NCBI RefSeq assembly: GCF_004217315.1
Contig: NZ_SGWR01000002.1
Location: 550,414 to 614,413, forward strand
DNA from: Corticibacter populi
GTDB lineage: Bacteria; Pseudomonadota; Gammaproteobacteria; Burkholderiales; Burkholderiaceae_C
DNA length: 64,000 bases
Direction of reading: 5' to 3'
The notes under the pieces were generated by a model. That model ran no database searches. It was given only the letters and a program-made list of their open reading frames with translations, and was not told the DNA's origin. The first letter of the stretch is position 1. Each line of letters starts with the position of its first letter. Below are positions 35,637-40,887 of the stretch, one piece after another. The position numbers and the translations under genes were made by a program.

Positions 35637-36764
35637 TCAGGCCTGTCGGCGGCGCGCCAGCACGGCTGCCGAGAGGGTCTTGAGAATGTCCTCGGACTCT
35701 TCCCAACCCACGCAGGCATCGGTGATGCTCTTGCCGTATTCCAGCCGGGTCGGATCGTCCTCGCCCGGGTTGAATTTCTGCGCCCCGGCATTGAGGTGGC
35801 TCTCGATCATGACACCGAAGATCTGCTGCGAGCCATCGGCGATCTGGCCAGCAATGTCACCGGCCACGACATGCTGCAGTTCATGCTTCTTGCAGCTGTT
35901 GGCATGCGAGCAATCGACCATCAGCGACGGATGCAGACCCACTTTCTCCAGGTCGGCACAGGCACTGGCGACATGCTCGGCCTGGTAGTTCGGTGTCTTG
36001 CCGCCGCGCAGGATCACGTGGCAGTCGGTATTGCCTTCGGTGACGACGATCGCCACCTGCCCGCTCTTGTGCACCGAGAGGAAGTGGTGCGGACGGCTGG
36101 CCGACATGATCGCGTCGGTGGCGATGCGGATGTTGCCGTCGGTGCCATTCTTGAAACCGATCGGCGCCGACAGGCCCGAGGCCAGTTCGCGATGCACCTG
36201 GCTCTCGGTGGTGCGCGCACCGATGGCACCCCAGGCAATCAGGTCGCCGATGTATTGCGGCGAGATCACGTCCAGCATCTCGCTGCCAGCCGGCACGCCC
36301 AGGCGGTTGATGTCGATCAGCAACTGGCGCGCAATGCGCAGGCCTTCGTCGATGCGGTAGCTCTGGTCGAGGTAGGGATCGTTGATCAGCCCCTTCCAGC
36401 CCACCGTGGTGCGCGGCTTCTCGAAATATACGCGCATGACGATCTCCAGTGAATCGCGATACTGGTCCCGCACGCGCTTGAGCCGCCTGGCATATTCCAC
36501 CGCCGCCACCGGGTCGTGAATGCTGCAAGGGCCGATGACGACCAGGAGGCGGTCGTCCTGGCCGTTCATGATGCGGCGAATGTGATCGCGCGTATCAGCC
36601 ACCAGCCGCTCGACGCGTGTGCCCTGGATCGGGAAGAATCGAATCAAATGCTCGGGAGGAGGCAGCACGGTGATGTCCTGAATTCGCTGGTTGTCTGTCT
36701 GGCTGGTTTTTTCGACAGAGTGATACCAGCGCCCGGGCGGTTGGTTCGTGATGTCAGCGGTCAT
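35637..36764 (-). CDS. aroG: 3-deoxy-7-phosphoheptulonate (DAHP) synthase, class I
   Basis: First enzyme of the shikimate pathway, condensing phosphoenolpyruvate and erythrose 4-phosphate. The 375-residue protein is of the AroF/G/H type, with VVIGPCSIHDPVAA (metal-binding Cys), MRVYFEKPRTTVGWKGLINDP, GARTTESQVHRELASGLSAPIGFKNGTDG and VDCSHANSCKKHELQ. Which aromatic amino acid inhibits it cannot be told by eye. GAGGA precedes the ATG. Upstream on the same strand lie a terminator and an aromatic-rich leader peptide, indicating control by transcription attenuation. Confidence 0.96.
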   Translation of the reverse strand: MTADITNQPPGRWYHSVEKTSQTDNQRIQDITVLPPPEHLIRFFPIQGTRVERLVADTRDHIRRIMNGQDDRLLVVIGPCSIHDPVAAVEYARRLKRVRDQYRDSLEIVMRVYFEKPRTTVGWKGLINDPYLDQSYRIDEGLRIARQLLIDINRLGVPAGSEMLDVISPQYIGDLIAWGAIGARTTESQVHRELASGLSAPIGFKNGTDGNIRIATDAIMSASRPHHFLSVHKSGQVAIVVTEGNTDCHVILRGGKTPNYQAEHVASACADLEKVGLHPSLMVDCSHANSCKKHELQHVVAGDIAGQIADGSQQIFGVMIESHLNAGAQKFNPGEDDPTRLEYGKSITDACVGWEESEDILKTLSAAVLARRRQA

Positions 36765-36842
36765 GGGGTCCTCGTTGCTGAATGGAAGAAAGTGGATCGG
36801 TCAGGGCAAACGCTCGAACTGGGGTTCCAAACACAAGCCATG

Positions 36843-36876
36843 AAAAAACCGCCGAGCTTTGCGGGCATCGGCGGTT
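36843..36876 (-). terminator. Attenuator terminator in the aroG leader
   Basis: On the minus strand AACCGCCGA (36876-36868) pairs with TCGGCGGTT (36855-36847), followed by a run of six U (36848-36843). It lies between the leader-peptide stop and aroG, so it should stop transcription before aroG when aromatic amino acids are plentiful. GGCGG at the end of the leader peptide (36926-36922) could pair with the CCGCC of the terminator's 5' arm as an antiterminator. Confidence 0.85.
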
Positions 36877-36917
36877 CTTGGTAATCGAAGCTTGCGTGAT
36901 CTGCGCGTCTCGACCTC

Positions 36918-36974
36918 TCATCCGCCAGGGACAGAGAAGTAAAACCAGAAAAAGTAGGAACGCGCAATCTGCAT
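36918..36974 (-). CDS. aroG attenuator leader peptide
   Basis: An 18-codon frame reading MQIARSYFFWFYFSVPGG, then TGA. Residues 7-13 are seven consecutive aromatics (Y-F-F-W-F-Y-F: four Phe, two Tyr, one Trp). It ends 42 bases before an intrinsic terminator that precedes aroG. This is the arrangement of leader peptides such as PheL, where ribosome stalling at codons of scarce amino acids prevents terminator formation. The Shine-Dalgarno is weak. A promoter at 37009-36982 would start transcription almost at the ATG, so the leader message may be leaderless. Confidence 0.85.
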   Translation of the reverse strand: MQIARSYFFWFYFSVPGG

Positions 36975-36981
36975 GCCGCAA

Positions 36982-37009
36982 ACTCTAGCACAGATCTTCC
37001 CTCTGGCAA
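36982..37009 (-). promoter_or_regulatory. Putative sigma-70 promoter for the aroG leader
   Basis: TTGCCA (37009-37004) and TAGAGT (36987-36982) are separated by 16 bases. Transcription would start about 36975, next to the leader-peptide ATG at 36974. The -10 is only a 4/6 match. Confidence 0.45.
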
Positions 37010-37264: not shown

Positions 37265-37798
37265 ATGAGTGCAAGCGTTCAGACCGGCGAGAGCCACACC
37301 GGCCCGACCGAATCATCCAGGCAATCCCTGCTGGCCACTGCATACGCGGTGCTGCTGCCACTTTTCATTCTCTGTGCGCTGGCCTATTACGCCATCTCGA
37401 CGCACACCCGCGCCAACAGCGACTCGCAGCAGTTGGCCGCCACCGATGCGCGCATCAGCAAGGTCGGCGGCATCGAGATCCGCGACGCCAACCGCCCGTT
37501 GGTCGGCGGGCAAGTGGTCTACGAGGCCCAGTGCGCGGCCTGCCATGCCAGCGGCGTTGCCGGCGCCCCGACATTCGGCGATGCCAGCGCCTGGACGGCG
37601 CGCATCGACACCGGCTTTGACGCGCTGGTGAAATCGGCCCTCGAAGGCAAGGGCGCCATGGCCCCACAGGGTGGCGGCAACTTCAGTGACCTGGAGATTG
37701 CCCGCGCCGTGGCCTACATGACCCATGCCGCCGGCGCCTCCTTTGCCGAACCCGATCCCGAAAGTGGCGAAGGCGAATCAAGTACGCCGGCACCATGA
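37265..37798 (+). CDS. Membrane-anchored c-type cytochrome (class I, c5-like)
   Basis: Periplasmic electron carrier tethered to the inner membrane. The 177-residue protein has a cytoplasmic N-terminus, an uncleaved signal anchor (about 22-44) and one haem c domain. The haem is bound at Cys90-x-x-Cys93-His94 (QCAACHA), with a distal ligand probably Met132 (GAMAPQGG). The short haem domain and GKGAMAPQGG loop match cytochrome c5/c555-like proteins. A Glu/Pro-rich tail follows. No oxidase genes are adjacent, so its redox partner is unknown. A strong terminator follows the gene. Confidence 0.92.
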   Translation: MSASVQTGESHTGPTESSRQSLLATAYAVLLPLFILCALAYYAISTHTRANSDSQQLAATDARISKVGGIEIRDANRPLVGGQVVYEAQCAACHASGVAGAPTFGDASAWTARIDTGFDALVKSALEGKGAMAPQGGGNFSDLEIARAVAYMTHAAGASFAEPDPESGEGESSTPAP

Positions 37799-37861
37799 AT
37801 GGATCGCCGTGCAGGCGCATCCGTCCAGGGTCTGTGGAACAGGTTCCGGAGCCGCAAATTA

Positions 37862-37891
37862 GAAAACGCCGGGCAGTTGCCCGGCGTTTTC
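37862..37891. terminator. Bidirectional intrinsic terminator
   Basis: A perfect 14-bp stem, GAAAACGCCGGGCA (37862-37875) with TGCCCGGCGTTTTC (37878-37891). U tracts are available in both directions. It serves the cytochrome gene on the plus strand and the Roadblock cluster on the minus strand. Confidence 0.85.
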
Positions 37892-37980
37892 AGTTCCTGG
37901 TTTGCAGTGCCATCCGCGAAATCAAATCGACTGGACAGCACTCCAGAAGAATCGGCGACAGCGATTGGCAGGAAAAAAAT

Positions 37981-38361
37981 TCACTGGTCGGCCAACGCCG
38001 CCAGTTGCAAGGCCTTCTGACGGGCCTCAAGCAGCACCCGCCCCAGATTGGCCCCGCTCTCTGCCGACAAAGTCAGCGCGCGGCCCGGACCGGCTTCGAC
38101 CAGCAGCATGACGCCACGGCTCCCGCCCAGGATGACCTGCTTGAGATCGCCCACGTCCACCTCCTTGGCAGCACGGCGCGACAGCGCCAGCAGCGAGGCG
38201 CACATGGCGCCGATGCGATCGGCATTGACCTCCGCATCGGAAACCGAGGCCAGCACGAAGCCGTCGAAGGAAACCCATGCTGCCAGTTCGATCTGGCCGG
38301 AATTGGCCCGCAGCTCCCGCAAGATGCGGCGCGCCTGGGAACCCGTGACTTCTGACAGCAT
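37981..38361 (-). CDS. Roadblock/LC7-domain protein
   Basis: A 126-residue cytoplasmic protein made of a single Roadblock/LC7 domain, the fold of MglB and other regulators of small Ras-like GTPases. Features include the N-terminal helix SQARRILRELRANSG, the central strand pair IELAAWVSFDGFVLASVSDA, and the helix RIGAMCASLLALSRRAAKEVDVGDLKQVILGGSRGVMLL. These align with the family pattern. It is the last gene of a minus-strand cluster that also encodes a second Roadblock protein and a GTPase, suggesting that it acts as a GTPase regulator or dimeric scaffold. Confidence 0.88.
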   Translation of the reverse strand: MLSEVTGSQARRILRELRANSGQIELAAWVSFDGFVLASVSDAEVNADRIGAMCASLLALSRRAAKEVDVGDLKQVILGGSRGVMLLVEAGPGRALTLSAESGANLGRVLLEARQKALQLAALADQ

Positions 38362-38435
38362 TCAAGCTTTCCAAAAACACCCCGACGGGACCGCGCCATG
38401 GGCATGGCCGGCACCTCTCCCGCAGGGATACGGCA

Positions 38436-38837
38436 TCAAAGCGAGGTTTCGATCGCAGGCATCGCCATGCGGGCCTTGGTCAGCACCATGCCCAGGTTGG
38501 CGCCCTTGCGACAGACGAAAGTGGCAACCTGCGATTGCTGCTTGCCACGGATGAAAACGTGCAACAGGTTGTCGCTGTTGACAATGATTTCCTGGAAATA
38601 GTGGCGACCATCTTCCTGCACGCCACGCACGCGGCGGAAGATCTTCTCGATCGCCTGCACGTTGGGGCCCTGAAACAGGTCGGCCGTGGCGGCCGACAGC
38701 AGGTCGATCACTTCCTGCGCATGCGAATCGACGGTCTTGATGGCCAGCAGCATGCCGGACTCAAGGTCCACGTAGCCAGCGGCCACGCAATCGGGAATGG
38801 AGGTAATGGCCTTCTGGAGGCTGGCATCGAGTGACAT
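38436..38837 (-). CDS. Second Roadblock/LC7-like protein
   Basis: A 133-residue protein with a divergent Roadblock-like layout: a helix with two short strands (SIPDCVAAGYVDLESGMLLAIKTV), a central helix (AQEVIDLLSAATADLF), then strands (HYFQEIIVNSDNLLHVFIRG, SQVATFVCRKGANLG) and a final helix (MVLTKARMAMPAI). Its C-terminal GANLGMVLTKAR resembles the GANLGRVLLEAR end of the neighbouring Roadblock protein, supporting common descent. It is separated by 74 bases from that gene and by 113 AT-rich bases from the ABC-phosphatase gene. Confidence 0.75.
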   Translation of the reverse strand: MSLDASLQKAITSIPDCVAAGYVDLESGMLLAIKTVDSHAQEVIDLLSAATADLFQGPNVQAIEKIFRRVRGVQEDGRHYFQEIIVNSDNLLHVFIRGKQQSQVATFVCRKGANLGMVLTKARMAMPAIETSL

Positions 38838-38950
38838 CGCGGTATCTTCCTTGTGGTGAATCGAACGGCATCAATGACGGTGAAGGCCAAGCCTGCCAAT
38901 CATTACGCACTGCAATAATTGTAAGGAAAATAAAAAAAATTTGTGCTGGA

Positions 38951-40279
38951 TCAAGAAAAAGTAACACTTTCCAACAAGAACCGTTGGAATTGCGCCAGAA
39001 AGATCCGCTGCGCCTCGGACTGGATCCAGCCGGTATCGATGCGTCGCATGGCGCGCAGGGCCTGTTCGCCCGACCATTGACCCTTGGAACGCCACATCAG
39101 GTACATGCCCAGCACCGTGCCGGTGCGGCCCTGCCCGGCCTTGCAGTGCACGGCCACACAGGCTCCCGCAGCCAGTTTCCGATCCAGCAGCGCGCAGATG
39201 TCGACAGCCTGCTCCAGGCTCGGTGCGGCCATGTCCGGCATCGGCGTGAAGCAGCATTCGATCCCATACTGGGCAGCCAGCGCCGCATCGAACGGGGTCT
39301 CGGTGAGATTGAGCAGGGTGGTGATGCCACTGCCTTGCAGGCCTTGCAAATCCTGCTGCACATCGGCCAGCAGCCCGGGCATGGCCACGCCTGCCAGCTG
39401 GTCCGGCACCACCCAGCGAAACCGATTGGGCTGCAGGGCGTGGCCACGGCCATGCCCGGGCCTGCGCCCGGCCTGCAGGGCGGCCATCGCCATGGCGATG
39501 CGATCGCTGGTCTGCGCCGGCTCCTGCGCCGGCTCGGCGCTTTGCTCCGGCAGGGTGCCATGGGCGAGAAAGTAGCGCGCCTGCTCGCTTTGCGGCGCGG
39601 CGAAGAACCGCGCCGCCGGTCCTGCTTCGATCACGCGACCATTGCCCATCAGAATGACTTGGTCTGCCACCACCCTGGCCTCGCCGAGGTGATGGGTAAT
39701 CATCAACAGACTGGCGCGCAGCGCGAGTGCCCGTACCAGTGCCAGCACTCGCCGCGCGGCGGCTTCGTCCAGGCCGGCCGTGGGCTCGTCGAGCAGGACC
39801 AGGTTCGGCTGCAGCGCCGCCACTTTCAGCAGGTTGAAGCAGATCCAGTCGGCTTGCGCCAGGGCGGCGCATTCGTCGAACAGCGCCGGCAGCCATTCGC
39901 GGCAATCCAGCTCCGCGAACAGGCTACGCAACTGCTGCAGCACGGTGGCCGCATCCTCGGCCCGCCCCTCACAAAAGAACTGCAGGACAGTGCCAGCCGG
40001 CCGCGCCGGTTTCTGCAGCACCGCCGCGCAGCGCAGCGGCGCGTGGCGCGTGGCGCCGGTACAGGCGGCGCGCCAGTCGCCCTCGTCCACCTGCAGGACG
40101 CCTGCTGCCGCCTGGCCCAGCACGCGGATGCTGCGCAGCAGGGTCGACTTGCCCGTGCCGGACGGGCCCAGGATCACGCAGCAGCCCCGCTCCGGCAGCG
40201 CCACATCGGCGCCGAAAAGAACCTGTCTATCCGCATACCAGGCATCGAGTCCTTCAATGGACAACAGGCACGGCCTCAT
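38951..40279 (-). CDS. ABC-type ATPase fused to a dual-specificity phosphatase
   Basis: A 442-residue protein with two recognisable halves. Residues about 5-235 are an ABC ATPase with Walker A GPSGTGKST (38-46), Q-loop Gln89, Walker B LVLLDEP (160-166) and an H-loop near His196. Where LSGGQ should precede Walker B there is no such motif (the region reads QADWICFNLLKVAAL), so normal paired ATP hydrolysis is doubtful. Residues about 285-440 are a dual-specificity/tyrosine phosphatase domain with general acid Asp349 (PMPDM) and the P-loop HCKAGQGRTG (Cys379, Arg385), all intact. No membrane segment is seen. The start overlaps the GTPase gene as ATGA. Function unknown; probably a signalling ATPase/phosphatase rather than a transporter subunit. 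Confidence 0.85.
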   Translation of the reverse strand: MRPCLLSIEGLDAWYADRQVLFGADVALPERGCCVILGPSGTGKSTLLRSIRVLGQAAAGVLQVDEGDWRAACTGATRHAPLRCAAVLQKPARPAGTVLQFFCEGRAEDAATVLQQLRSLFAELDCREWLPALFDECAALAQADWICFNLLKVAALQPNLVLLDEPTAGLDEAAARRVLALVRALALRASLLMITHHLGEARVVADQVILMGNGRVIEAGPAARFFAAPQSEQARYFLAHGTLPEQSAEPAQEPAQTSDRIAMAMAALQAGRRPGHGRGHALQPNRFRWVVPDQLAGVAMPGLLADVQQDLQGLQGSGITTLLNLTETPFDAALAAQYGIECCFTPMPDMAAPSLEQAVDICALLDRKLAAGACVAVHCKAGQGRTGTVLGMYLMWRSKGQWSGEQALRAMRRIDTGWIQSEAQRIFLAQFQRFLLESVTFS

Positions 40280-40887
40280 GCCTGGGTGCCTGTGAGGACG
40301 TGCATGCGCTCGTGCAGCAGGGAACTCGGGTAACGGTGGAAAGACTCCAGCAGCGCCGTCATCACCACCAGCAACACGGCCACATCCTGCTGCTCGCGCG
40401 CGTCACACCACAGTATGGGCGGATGGCAGAGGCTGCAGGTACAGGCCGAGCGCTCGGCGAAGTAACGCTGGTAGATGTCCAGGCTGCGCGTCTCGGCATC
40501 GTCCGCATGGGTGATACCGATGACCACCGGGAAATCGGTGCCGCCCTTTTGCGCGTGCACTGCCTCGATGTAGGCATTGAGGTCCGCCCGCGGATCAGGG
40601 CGGCTGTGGTCGAGGAAGATCACCGCGCCCTTGGCCTGCTCGAGCAGAATCTCCCACATGAAGTCGAAACGGTCCTGGCCGGGCGCGCCATGCAGGCGCA
40701 GCCGGTCGCCGTTGCCCAGGTCCATCACCCCCATGTCCATCGCCACAGTGGTGGTTTCTTTGAGGGCCAGGGTCTCCTCGTCGGAAGCCCTGACATCGGT
40801 ATCAACGACCTCGATGTCGCTGATGGCGCGAATAGCCGTGGTCTTGCCGGAGCCGACCGAACCAAGAACTGCAATATTCCATTCCAT
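40276..40887 (-). CDS. Small Ras-like GTPase of a Roadblock cluster
   Basis: A 203-residue cytoplasmic GTPase of the group found with Roadblock proteins (conservon CvnD/MglA-like, COG2229 type). P-loop GSVGSGKT (9-16), switch I threonines about 45-47, a G3 motif read as GAPGQDRF (67-74), and a G4 region ITHADD (125-130) in place of NKxD. The C-terminal part contains Cys149, Cys151, Cys154 and Cys161, close enough to bind a metal. No lipid anchor motif is visible. It overlaps the ABC-phosphatase gene by four bases, implying coupled synthesis. Confidence 0.88.
   Translation of the reverse strand: MEWNIAVLGSVGSGKTTAIRAISDIEVVDTDVRASDEETLALKETTTVAMDMGVMDLGNGDRLRLHGAPGQDRFDFMWEILLEQAKGAVIFLDHSRPDPRADLNAYIEAVHAQKGGTDFPVVIGITHADDAETRSLDIYQRYFAERSACTCSLCHPPILWCDAREQQDVAVLLVVMTALLESFHRYPSSLLHERMHVLTGTQA

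Follow-up and report, generated by a model that had tools for sequence, protein, structure and literature searches.

A conserved leader with mixed aromatic codons: a putative, probably leaderless attenuator in front of aroG in Corticibacter populi and its relatives

What is the role of a very short open reading frame with seven aromatic codons in a row in front of a gene for DAHP synthase? This question is raised by a locus of Corticibacter populi, which we analysed within a stretch of 64,000 nucleotides (the window). The minus strand carries there, in this order, a promoter-like pair (37009-36982), a reading frame of 18 codons (36974-36918), an intrinsic terminator (36876-36843) and aroG, which starts at 36764 and extends to 35637. 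In our opinion, the arrangement is best explained as a ribosome-mediated transcription attenuator of aroG, and judging from sequence comparison we consider this very probable. That it would respond to all three of phenylalanine, tyrosine and tryptophan is, we believe, likely, with a somewhat lower degree of confidence.

The product of the presumably regulated gene is a class I DAHP synthase according to its match with the profile TIGR00034 (529 bits, cut-off 173.2); its match with the AroG equivalog NF006723, 537.3 bits, is under the cut-off of 568. Among the matches listed, the protein of Ottowia beijingensis (L085, Comamonadaceae) is 83% identical to it in the best segment. Beyond the promoter lies a plus-strand gene with a cytochrome c domain (37265-37798), and since this gene is divergent, the terminator on the aroG side does not end an upstream minus-strand gene. 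Still farther away there is a group of minus-strand genes (37981-40887), which consists of a Roadblock/LC7 protein (37981-38361), a reading frame with no Pfam match (38436-38837), an ABC ATPase fused to a dual-specificity-type phosphatase (38951-40279) and a GTPase-like ATP_bind_1 protein (40276-40887).

The short reading frame encodes MQIARSYFFWFYFSVPGG*, and its codons 7 to 13 (36936-36956) specify Tyr, Phe, Phe, Trp, Phe, Tyr and Phe. This peptide with its YFFWFYF run was already claimed in the initial annotation; it is read directly from the DNA, and the leader is conserved as a class. A search for relatives covered 30 genomes, 29 of which have a DAHP synthase match, and 80 named loci were added as the best 80 of 590 candidates that had been confirmed; these added loci lean to close kin. 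There are 111 loci in total, and 110 of them have at least 300 nucleotides upstream (L071 falls short). An upstream reading frame with at least five aromatics per eight codons is found in 88 of these 110 loci, the best 80 of 590 candidates included. The same score is reached by 1 of the 110 reverse strands and by 13 of 2,200 dinucleotide-shuffled sequences. When at least six aromatics are demanded, the count is 78 of 110 loci, with none among the 110 reverse strands and none among the 2,200 shuffles. The run is thus far above chance, and these controls rule out chance as its origin. Certain counts given below refer to 83 leaders, that is, the 88 without L006 and L093 (a near-copy and a copy), without L110, which has no terminator and is taken for a false positive, and without L023 and L106, for which the sequence as cut at the BLAST start shows no terminator. 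A covariance model (described below) does match the element of L023 (G024) with an E-value of 1.5e-18.

The terminator (segments 3:4) is formed by the arms AACCGCCGA (36876-36868) and TCGGCGGTT (36855-36847), which enclose a loop of 12 nucleotides, with six T at 36848-36843. A simple terminator scan with a loop limit of 8 did not list this hairpin with its 12-nucleotide loop. Folded alone, it has an energy of -19.9 kcal/mol, equalled by none of 200 shuffles. The 9-bp terminator with six U of the initial annotation can indeed be read from the sequence, and 85 of the 88 leader loci likewise have a terminator ahead of aroG.

What could compete with this terminator? The initial annotation proposed that GGCGG near the end of the reading frame pairs with CCGCC in the terminator arm. 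In the window GGCGG occupies 36922-36926 and would form the 5' strand of the putative antiterminator (segment 2); 83 of the 88 leader loci have it at most 60 nucleotides behind the final aromatic codon. CCGCC (36870-36874), which is common to the terminator 5' arm and the antiterminator, is invariant in the 82 leaders of alignment A2 (82 of 84 leader segments; L006 and L111 were left out). Hence both motifs of the proposed pairing are conserved in the relatives, as are the aromatic run and the terminator, and the comparison of regions upstream of aroG that the initial annotation had suggested came out in its favour. The reading frame of GGCGG was determined in 81 loci, a set that omits L020, L023, L038, L063, L106, L110 and L111, where no GGCGG lies within 40 nucleotides or no terminator was seen. 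It is frame 0 in 48 loci and frame 2 in 33. Since GGCGG encodes different residues in the two frames, it is the bases and not the residues that are kept, which makes an antiterminator likely. The endings of the leader peptides differ by group: SVxGG in many Comamonadaceae, MSAKFYFYFFWYLRPLADREG and similar in Burkholderia, FFTGYFYFSNSNPKAVE in Massilia and its kin. The base pair adjoining GGCGG/CCGCC in the same 81 loci is C-G in 39, U-A in 13, A-U in 2 and U-G in 11, with a mismatch in 16; it is thus Watson-Crick in 54 of 81 versus a maximum of 51 in 2,000 shuffles, a statistic that ignores shared ancestry. The number of contiguous antiterminator pairs ranges from 5 to 12.

The signal from folding is fainter. 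In the minimum free energy fold of the window leader, a possible protector hairpin (segments 1:2, 36913-36940) surrounds GGCGG, weakly reflected in the comparison: in the chimera test of helix 1:2 the native mean is -13.67 vs -12.81, and among 79 leaders (the set of 81 minus L006 and L093) there are 9 whose native helix beats 90% of the chimeras. Helix 2:3 beats 90% of its chimeras in 17 of 79, which is also a weak signal. The stability of the antiterminator stretch is not exceptional, as 180 of 200 shuffles fold equally well, and RNAalifold finds the terminator alone, whose innermost pair has both bases changed in 21 of 82 leaders. When the 3' arm is there as well, the terminator has the greater stability. 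The antiterminator would therefore have to win by timing, as it does in classical attenuators.

How would transcription and translation of the leader begin? The promoter-like pair claimed in the initial annotation was recovered on the minus strand as TTGCCA (37009-37004), a candidate -35 element, a spacer of 16 nucleotides and the hexamer TAGAGT (36987-36982), a conserved -10-like element; the pair scores 9 of 12 positions and TG stands ahead of the second hexamer. Transcription usually starts about 7 nucleotides beyond the -10 element, which would place the first base of the transcript at the ATG of the leader; the predicted start is at or next to the A of this codon (36974-36975). The initial annotation overlooked a consequence, namely that the leader is probably leaderless in the sense of translation initiation. 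Not one of the 83 leaders contains AGGA, GGAG or GAGG in the 15 nucleotides ending 4 nucleotides before its ATG, while such Shine-Dalgarno-like tetramers precede 61 of 76 aroG genes (at one candidate start) and occur in 186 of 2,342 random upstream windows. Of the 83 leaders, 61 have a TANNNT hexamer that ends 6 to 9 nucleotides before the ATG, and 56 have it with the TG extension; the mononucleotide shuffles gave 306 of 4,150 for the plain and 12 of 4,150 for the extended form. At any other distance up to 65 nucleotides the hexamer is never found in more than 4 leaders. Absence of Shine-Dalgarno-like sites combined with a -10-like hexamer so close to the ATG suggests that the reading frame is probably translated from a leaderless mRNA. 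The leader types of Burkholderia and Massilia have, as seen by eye, TATAAAG- or TATAGTC-like boxes farther upstream; these types would have short 5' UTRs, still with no Shine-Dalgarno-like site.

Based on these elements, the following sequence of events can be envisaged. RNA polymerase would begin with the leader ATG or right next to it, and translation would start on the leaderless RNA. A shortage of Phe-, Tyr- or Trp-tRNA would make the ribosome stall in the aromatic run and leave GGCGG free to pair with the emerging CCGCC, a pairing that would block closure of the terminator, so that aroG would be transcribed. With an ample supply of all three, the ribosome would reach the stop codon, which in the window is located directly 3' of GGCGG, and would cover GGCGG; then the terminator would form and the transcript would end about 130 nucleotides from its start.

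Does the run sense three amino acids, as its composition suggests? The initial annotation argued that mixed codons suit a DAHP synthase, and indeed 66 of 83 leaders contain Phe, Tyr and Trp, with Phe and Tyr in 14, Phe and Trp in 2 and Phe only in 1. The accompanying remark that known leaders such as PheL or TrpL mostly sense a single amino acid needs a correction: leaders with codons for several amino acids are already a known class. The cores of the 83 leaders hold 352 Phe, 141 Tyr and 70 Trp residues, and 59 of the 70 Trp codons lie 12 to 18 nucleotides before GGCGG. Similar leaders among the 79 were compared two at a time (1,199 pairs, which overlap). Codon differences in the core are synonymous in 34%, aromatic-for-aromatic in 30% and aromatic-to-other in 31%, the last share counting against the attenuator; in the N-terminal part 10% are synonymous. 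Codon usage in the 83 leaders has its own peculiarity: Phe is encoded by TTT in 65% of cases vs 19% in aroG of the same loci, and the third-position GC of other codons is 0.65 vs 0.84 in aroG.

We modelled stalling in the 79 leaders by hiding 10 nucleotides past the A-site codon, a usual figure for the ribosome mask, and by scoring the RNA before the 3' arm exists. Modelled stalls favour the antiterminator at 494 of 552 aromatic codons, and 75 of 79 leaders have at least one effective codon for each aromatic type present. At 9 nucleotides or less from GGCGG a smaller share of stalls is effective (21 of 38), and failures also occur at some very large distances. In the window leader codons 8 to 12 are effective in the model, while Tyr7 (0.39) and Phe13 (0.31) are not. 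For a stall at the stop codon the antiterminator is favoured in 0 of 79, which results from the mask setting. With no ribosome on the RNA, the antiterminator is still the favoured fold of the model for 34 of 79 leaders, whereas a classical attenuator would terminate.

It could be argued that the attenuator is the same but effectively has a single input, most likely Phe, and that other aromatic codons are tolerated since they leave the run rich in U and free of structure. In favour of this, Phe outnumbers Tyr and Trp in the core, and Tyr, Trp or both are missing from 17 of 83 leaders. Nevertheless, all three aromatics are kept in the large majority of leaders, and most Trp codons are found where modelled stalls work; we therefore regard a single input as rather unlikely. 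The leaders of Massilia, Rugamonas, Janthinobacterium and their kin (L099, L100, L102, L104, L107, L108, L109) have a run with Phe and Tyr and no Trp, and these Trp-less leaders provide a natural test of specificity.

How far does the proposed attenuator extend? A covariance model built from 82 leaders, partly from C. populi's own family, matches 146 of 150 genomes of this family (E≤1e-6), representing 137 of 141 genera, once in each genome. The element is thus nearly universal in the sampled genomes of the family. In the order 220 of 399 genomes match at E≤0.01, a number that includes partial matches to bare terminators. Among 40 order regions, which were hand-picked and not random, 28 are followed by aroG, and a leader reaches the score in 24 of these 28. 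Ten of the 12 regions without aroG, in this fetched set with its weak model matches, were taken for unrelated terminators; the other two are L130 and L132. In one genus of the order (L130, positions 150-971, also L132, L167 and L168) a similar leader beginning with MITFSAVFNAYFYWYRSS, followed by GGCGG and a GCCGCC terminator, precedes a reading frame of about 200 amino acids (MNEVSDA...) instead of aroG; this frame has no Pfam match below E 0.03. At E≤1e-4 the model matches 22 of 274 genomes of the class, including three of C. populi's own family; ten further class matches contained two true leaders before aroG (L157, L158), both from one family. The upstream regions of DAHP synthase genes in other orders of the class gave no leader, as none of 20 reaches five aromatics and the highest has 4.

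The 22 of 110 loci below the leader score include paralogues or more distant families (L002, L024-L026, L028-L031), L044 and L060 with four aromatics each, an Azoarcus MAG (L090) and the MAG loci L079, L082, L083, L087 and L095. No aromatic leader by score was seen in three Polynucleobacter (L052, L057, L058), in two Cupriavidus (L069, L072), one of them on chromosome 2 and perhaps a paralogue, and in Candidatus Burkholderia humilis (L097). L002 is the second DAHP synthase of the C. populi genome, 55% identical to AroG of the window; no aromatic leader precedes it, the top upstream reading frame scoring 2. Within the same genome, the regions from 600 nucleotides upstream of pheA (L152), trpE (L153) and the TrpE-like L154 and L156 have no small reading frame with at least three aromatics per eight codons, and L155 has an upstream frame with only three.

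The distribution also bears on another possibility, that the leaderless short RNA or its peptide acts in trans and that termination before aroG mainly serves to produce it. The predicted RNA of about 130 nucleotides resembles rnTrpL/peTrpL of S. meliloti, for which the account in PMC7298713 reports trans functions of both RNA and peptide. However, the peptide is conserved in its aromatic class but varies freely at its N-terminus, and the element is tied to aroG in those 28 of the 40 chosen regions that have this gene, so we consider this very unlikely. Scarcely credible is a riboswitch or protein-bound leader sensing an aromatic compound with an incidental reading frame: a terminator and alternative folds do exist, but Rfam gives nothing over the leader at E≤1 (its three weak matches lie elsewhere, at 37819-37910), the conserved parts are the reading frame, GGCGG and the terminator, and no consensus fold besides the terminator emerges from RNAalifold.

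A ribosome-mediated attenuator, the reading that we prefer, has obvious relatives. The leaders trpL and pheL are mainly sensors of one amino acid with Shine-Dalgarno sites. The aroG leader shares with them a peptide with control codons, a terminator and a competing antiterminator, and differs from them in its mixed codons and in that a Shine-Dalgarno-like site is not seen. The ilvGMEDA and thr leaders are multivalent, with codons for several amino acids of one pathway; in this the aroG leader is like them, unlike them in that their codons are branched-chain or Thr/Ile and not the aromatic set. Among the amino acid attenuators listed in PMC1183508 are trpL and pheL of E. coli and Salmonella. 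The initial annotation knew of no attenuator of this composition for aroG. The composition indeed appears new, but a precedent for a DAHP synthase leader exists: PMC4046766 describes a putative leader peptide with Phe-Tyr-Phe for aroF of Corynebacterium glutamicum, and counts some small reading frames of this species as leaderless. Compared by that description, aroF resembles our case in having an aromatic-codon leader peptide before a DAHP synthase gene, and differs in belonging to another phylum, in its shorter aromatic stretch and in the lack of Trp in the stretch named. As for initiation, the trpLE(G) transcript of S. meliloti starts with the ATG of the leader reading frame and its leader RNA is terminated, according to PMC7298713; the predicted start of the aroG leader is at the same place, and the leader of S. 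meliloti differs, as presented there, in having Trp codons only. Our literature search, in which subscription journals were thinly covered, found no description of a mixed-aromatic aroG leader. The principle of attenuation is classical, and the mixed-aromatic, probably leaderless form is what appears new here.

In E. coli, control at the entrance to the shikimate pathway falls to three isoenzymes and to repressors. By extrapolation from our analysis, a leaderless three-input sensor might govern this entry in cis across much of Burkholderiales, with the terminated RNA and the peptide acting in trans besides; taken together, the two parts make a long shot. If the attenuator does work with three inputs, a large bacterial group would set the flux into all aromatic amino acids via one switch read by the ribosome, and this switch would read the supply of Phe, Tyr and Trp together. 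It becomes testable how a leader with mixed codons weighs three inputs, and why the Trp codons are near the switch. The element also offers parts for biosensors of aromatic amino acids, and it points to a small gene that is kept in very many genomes.
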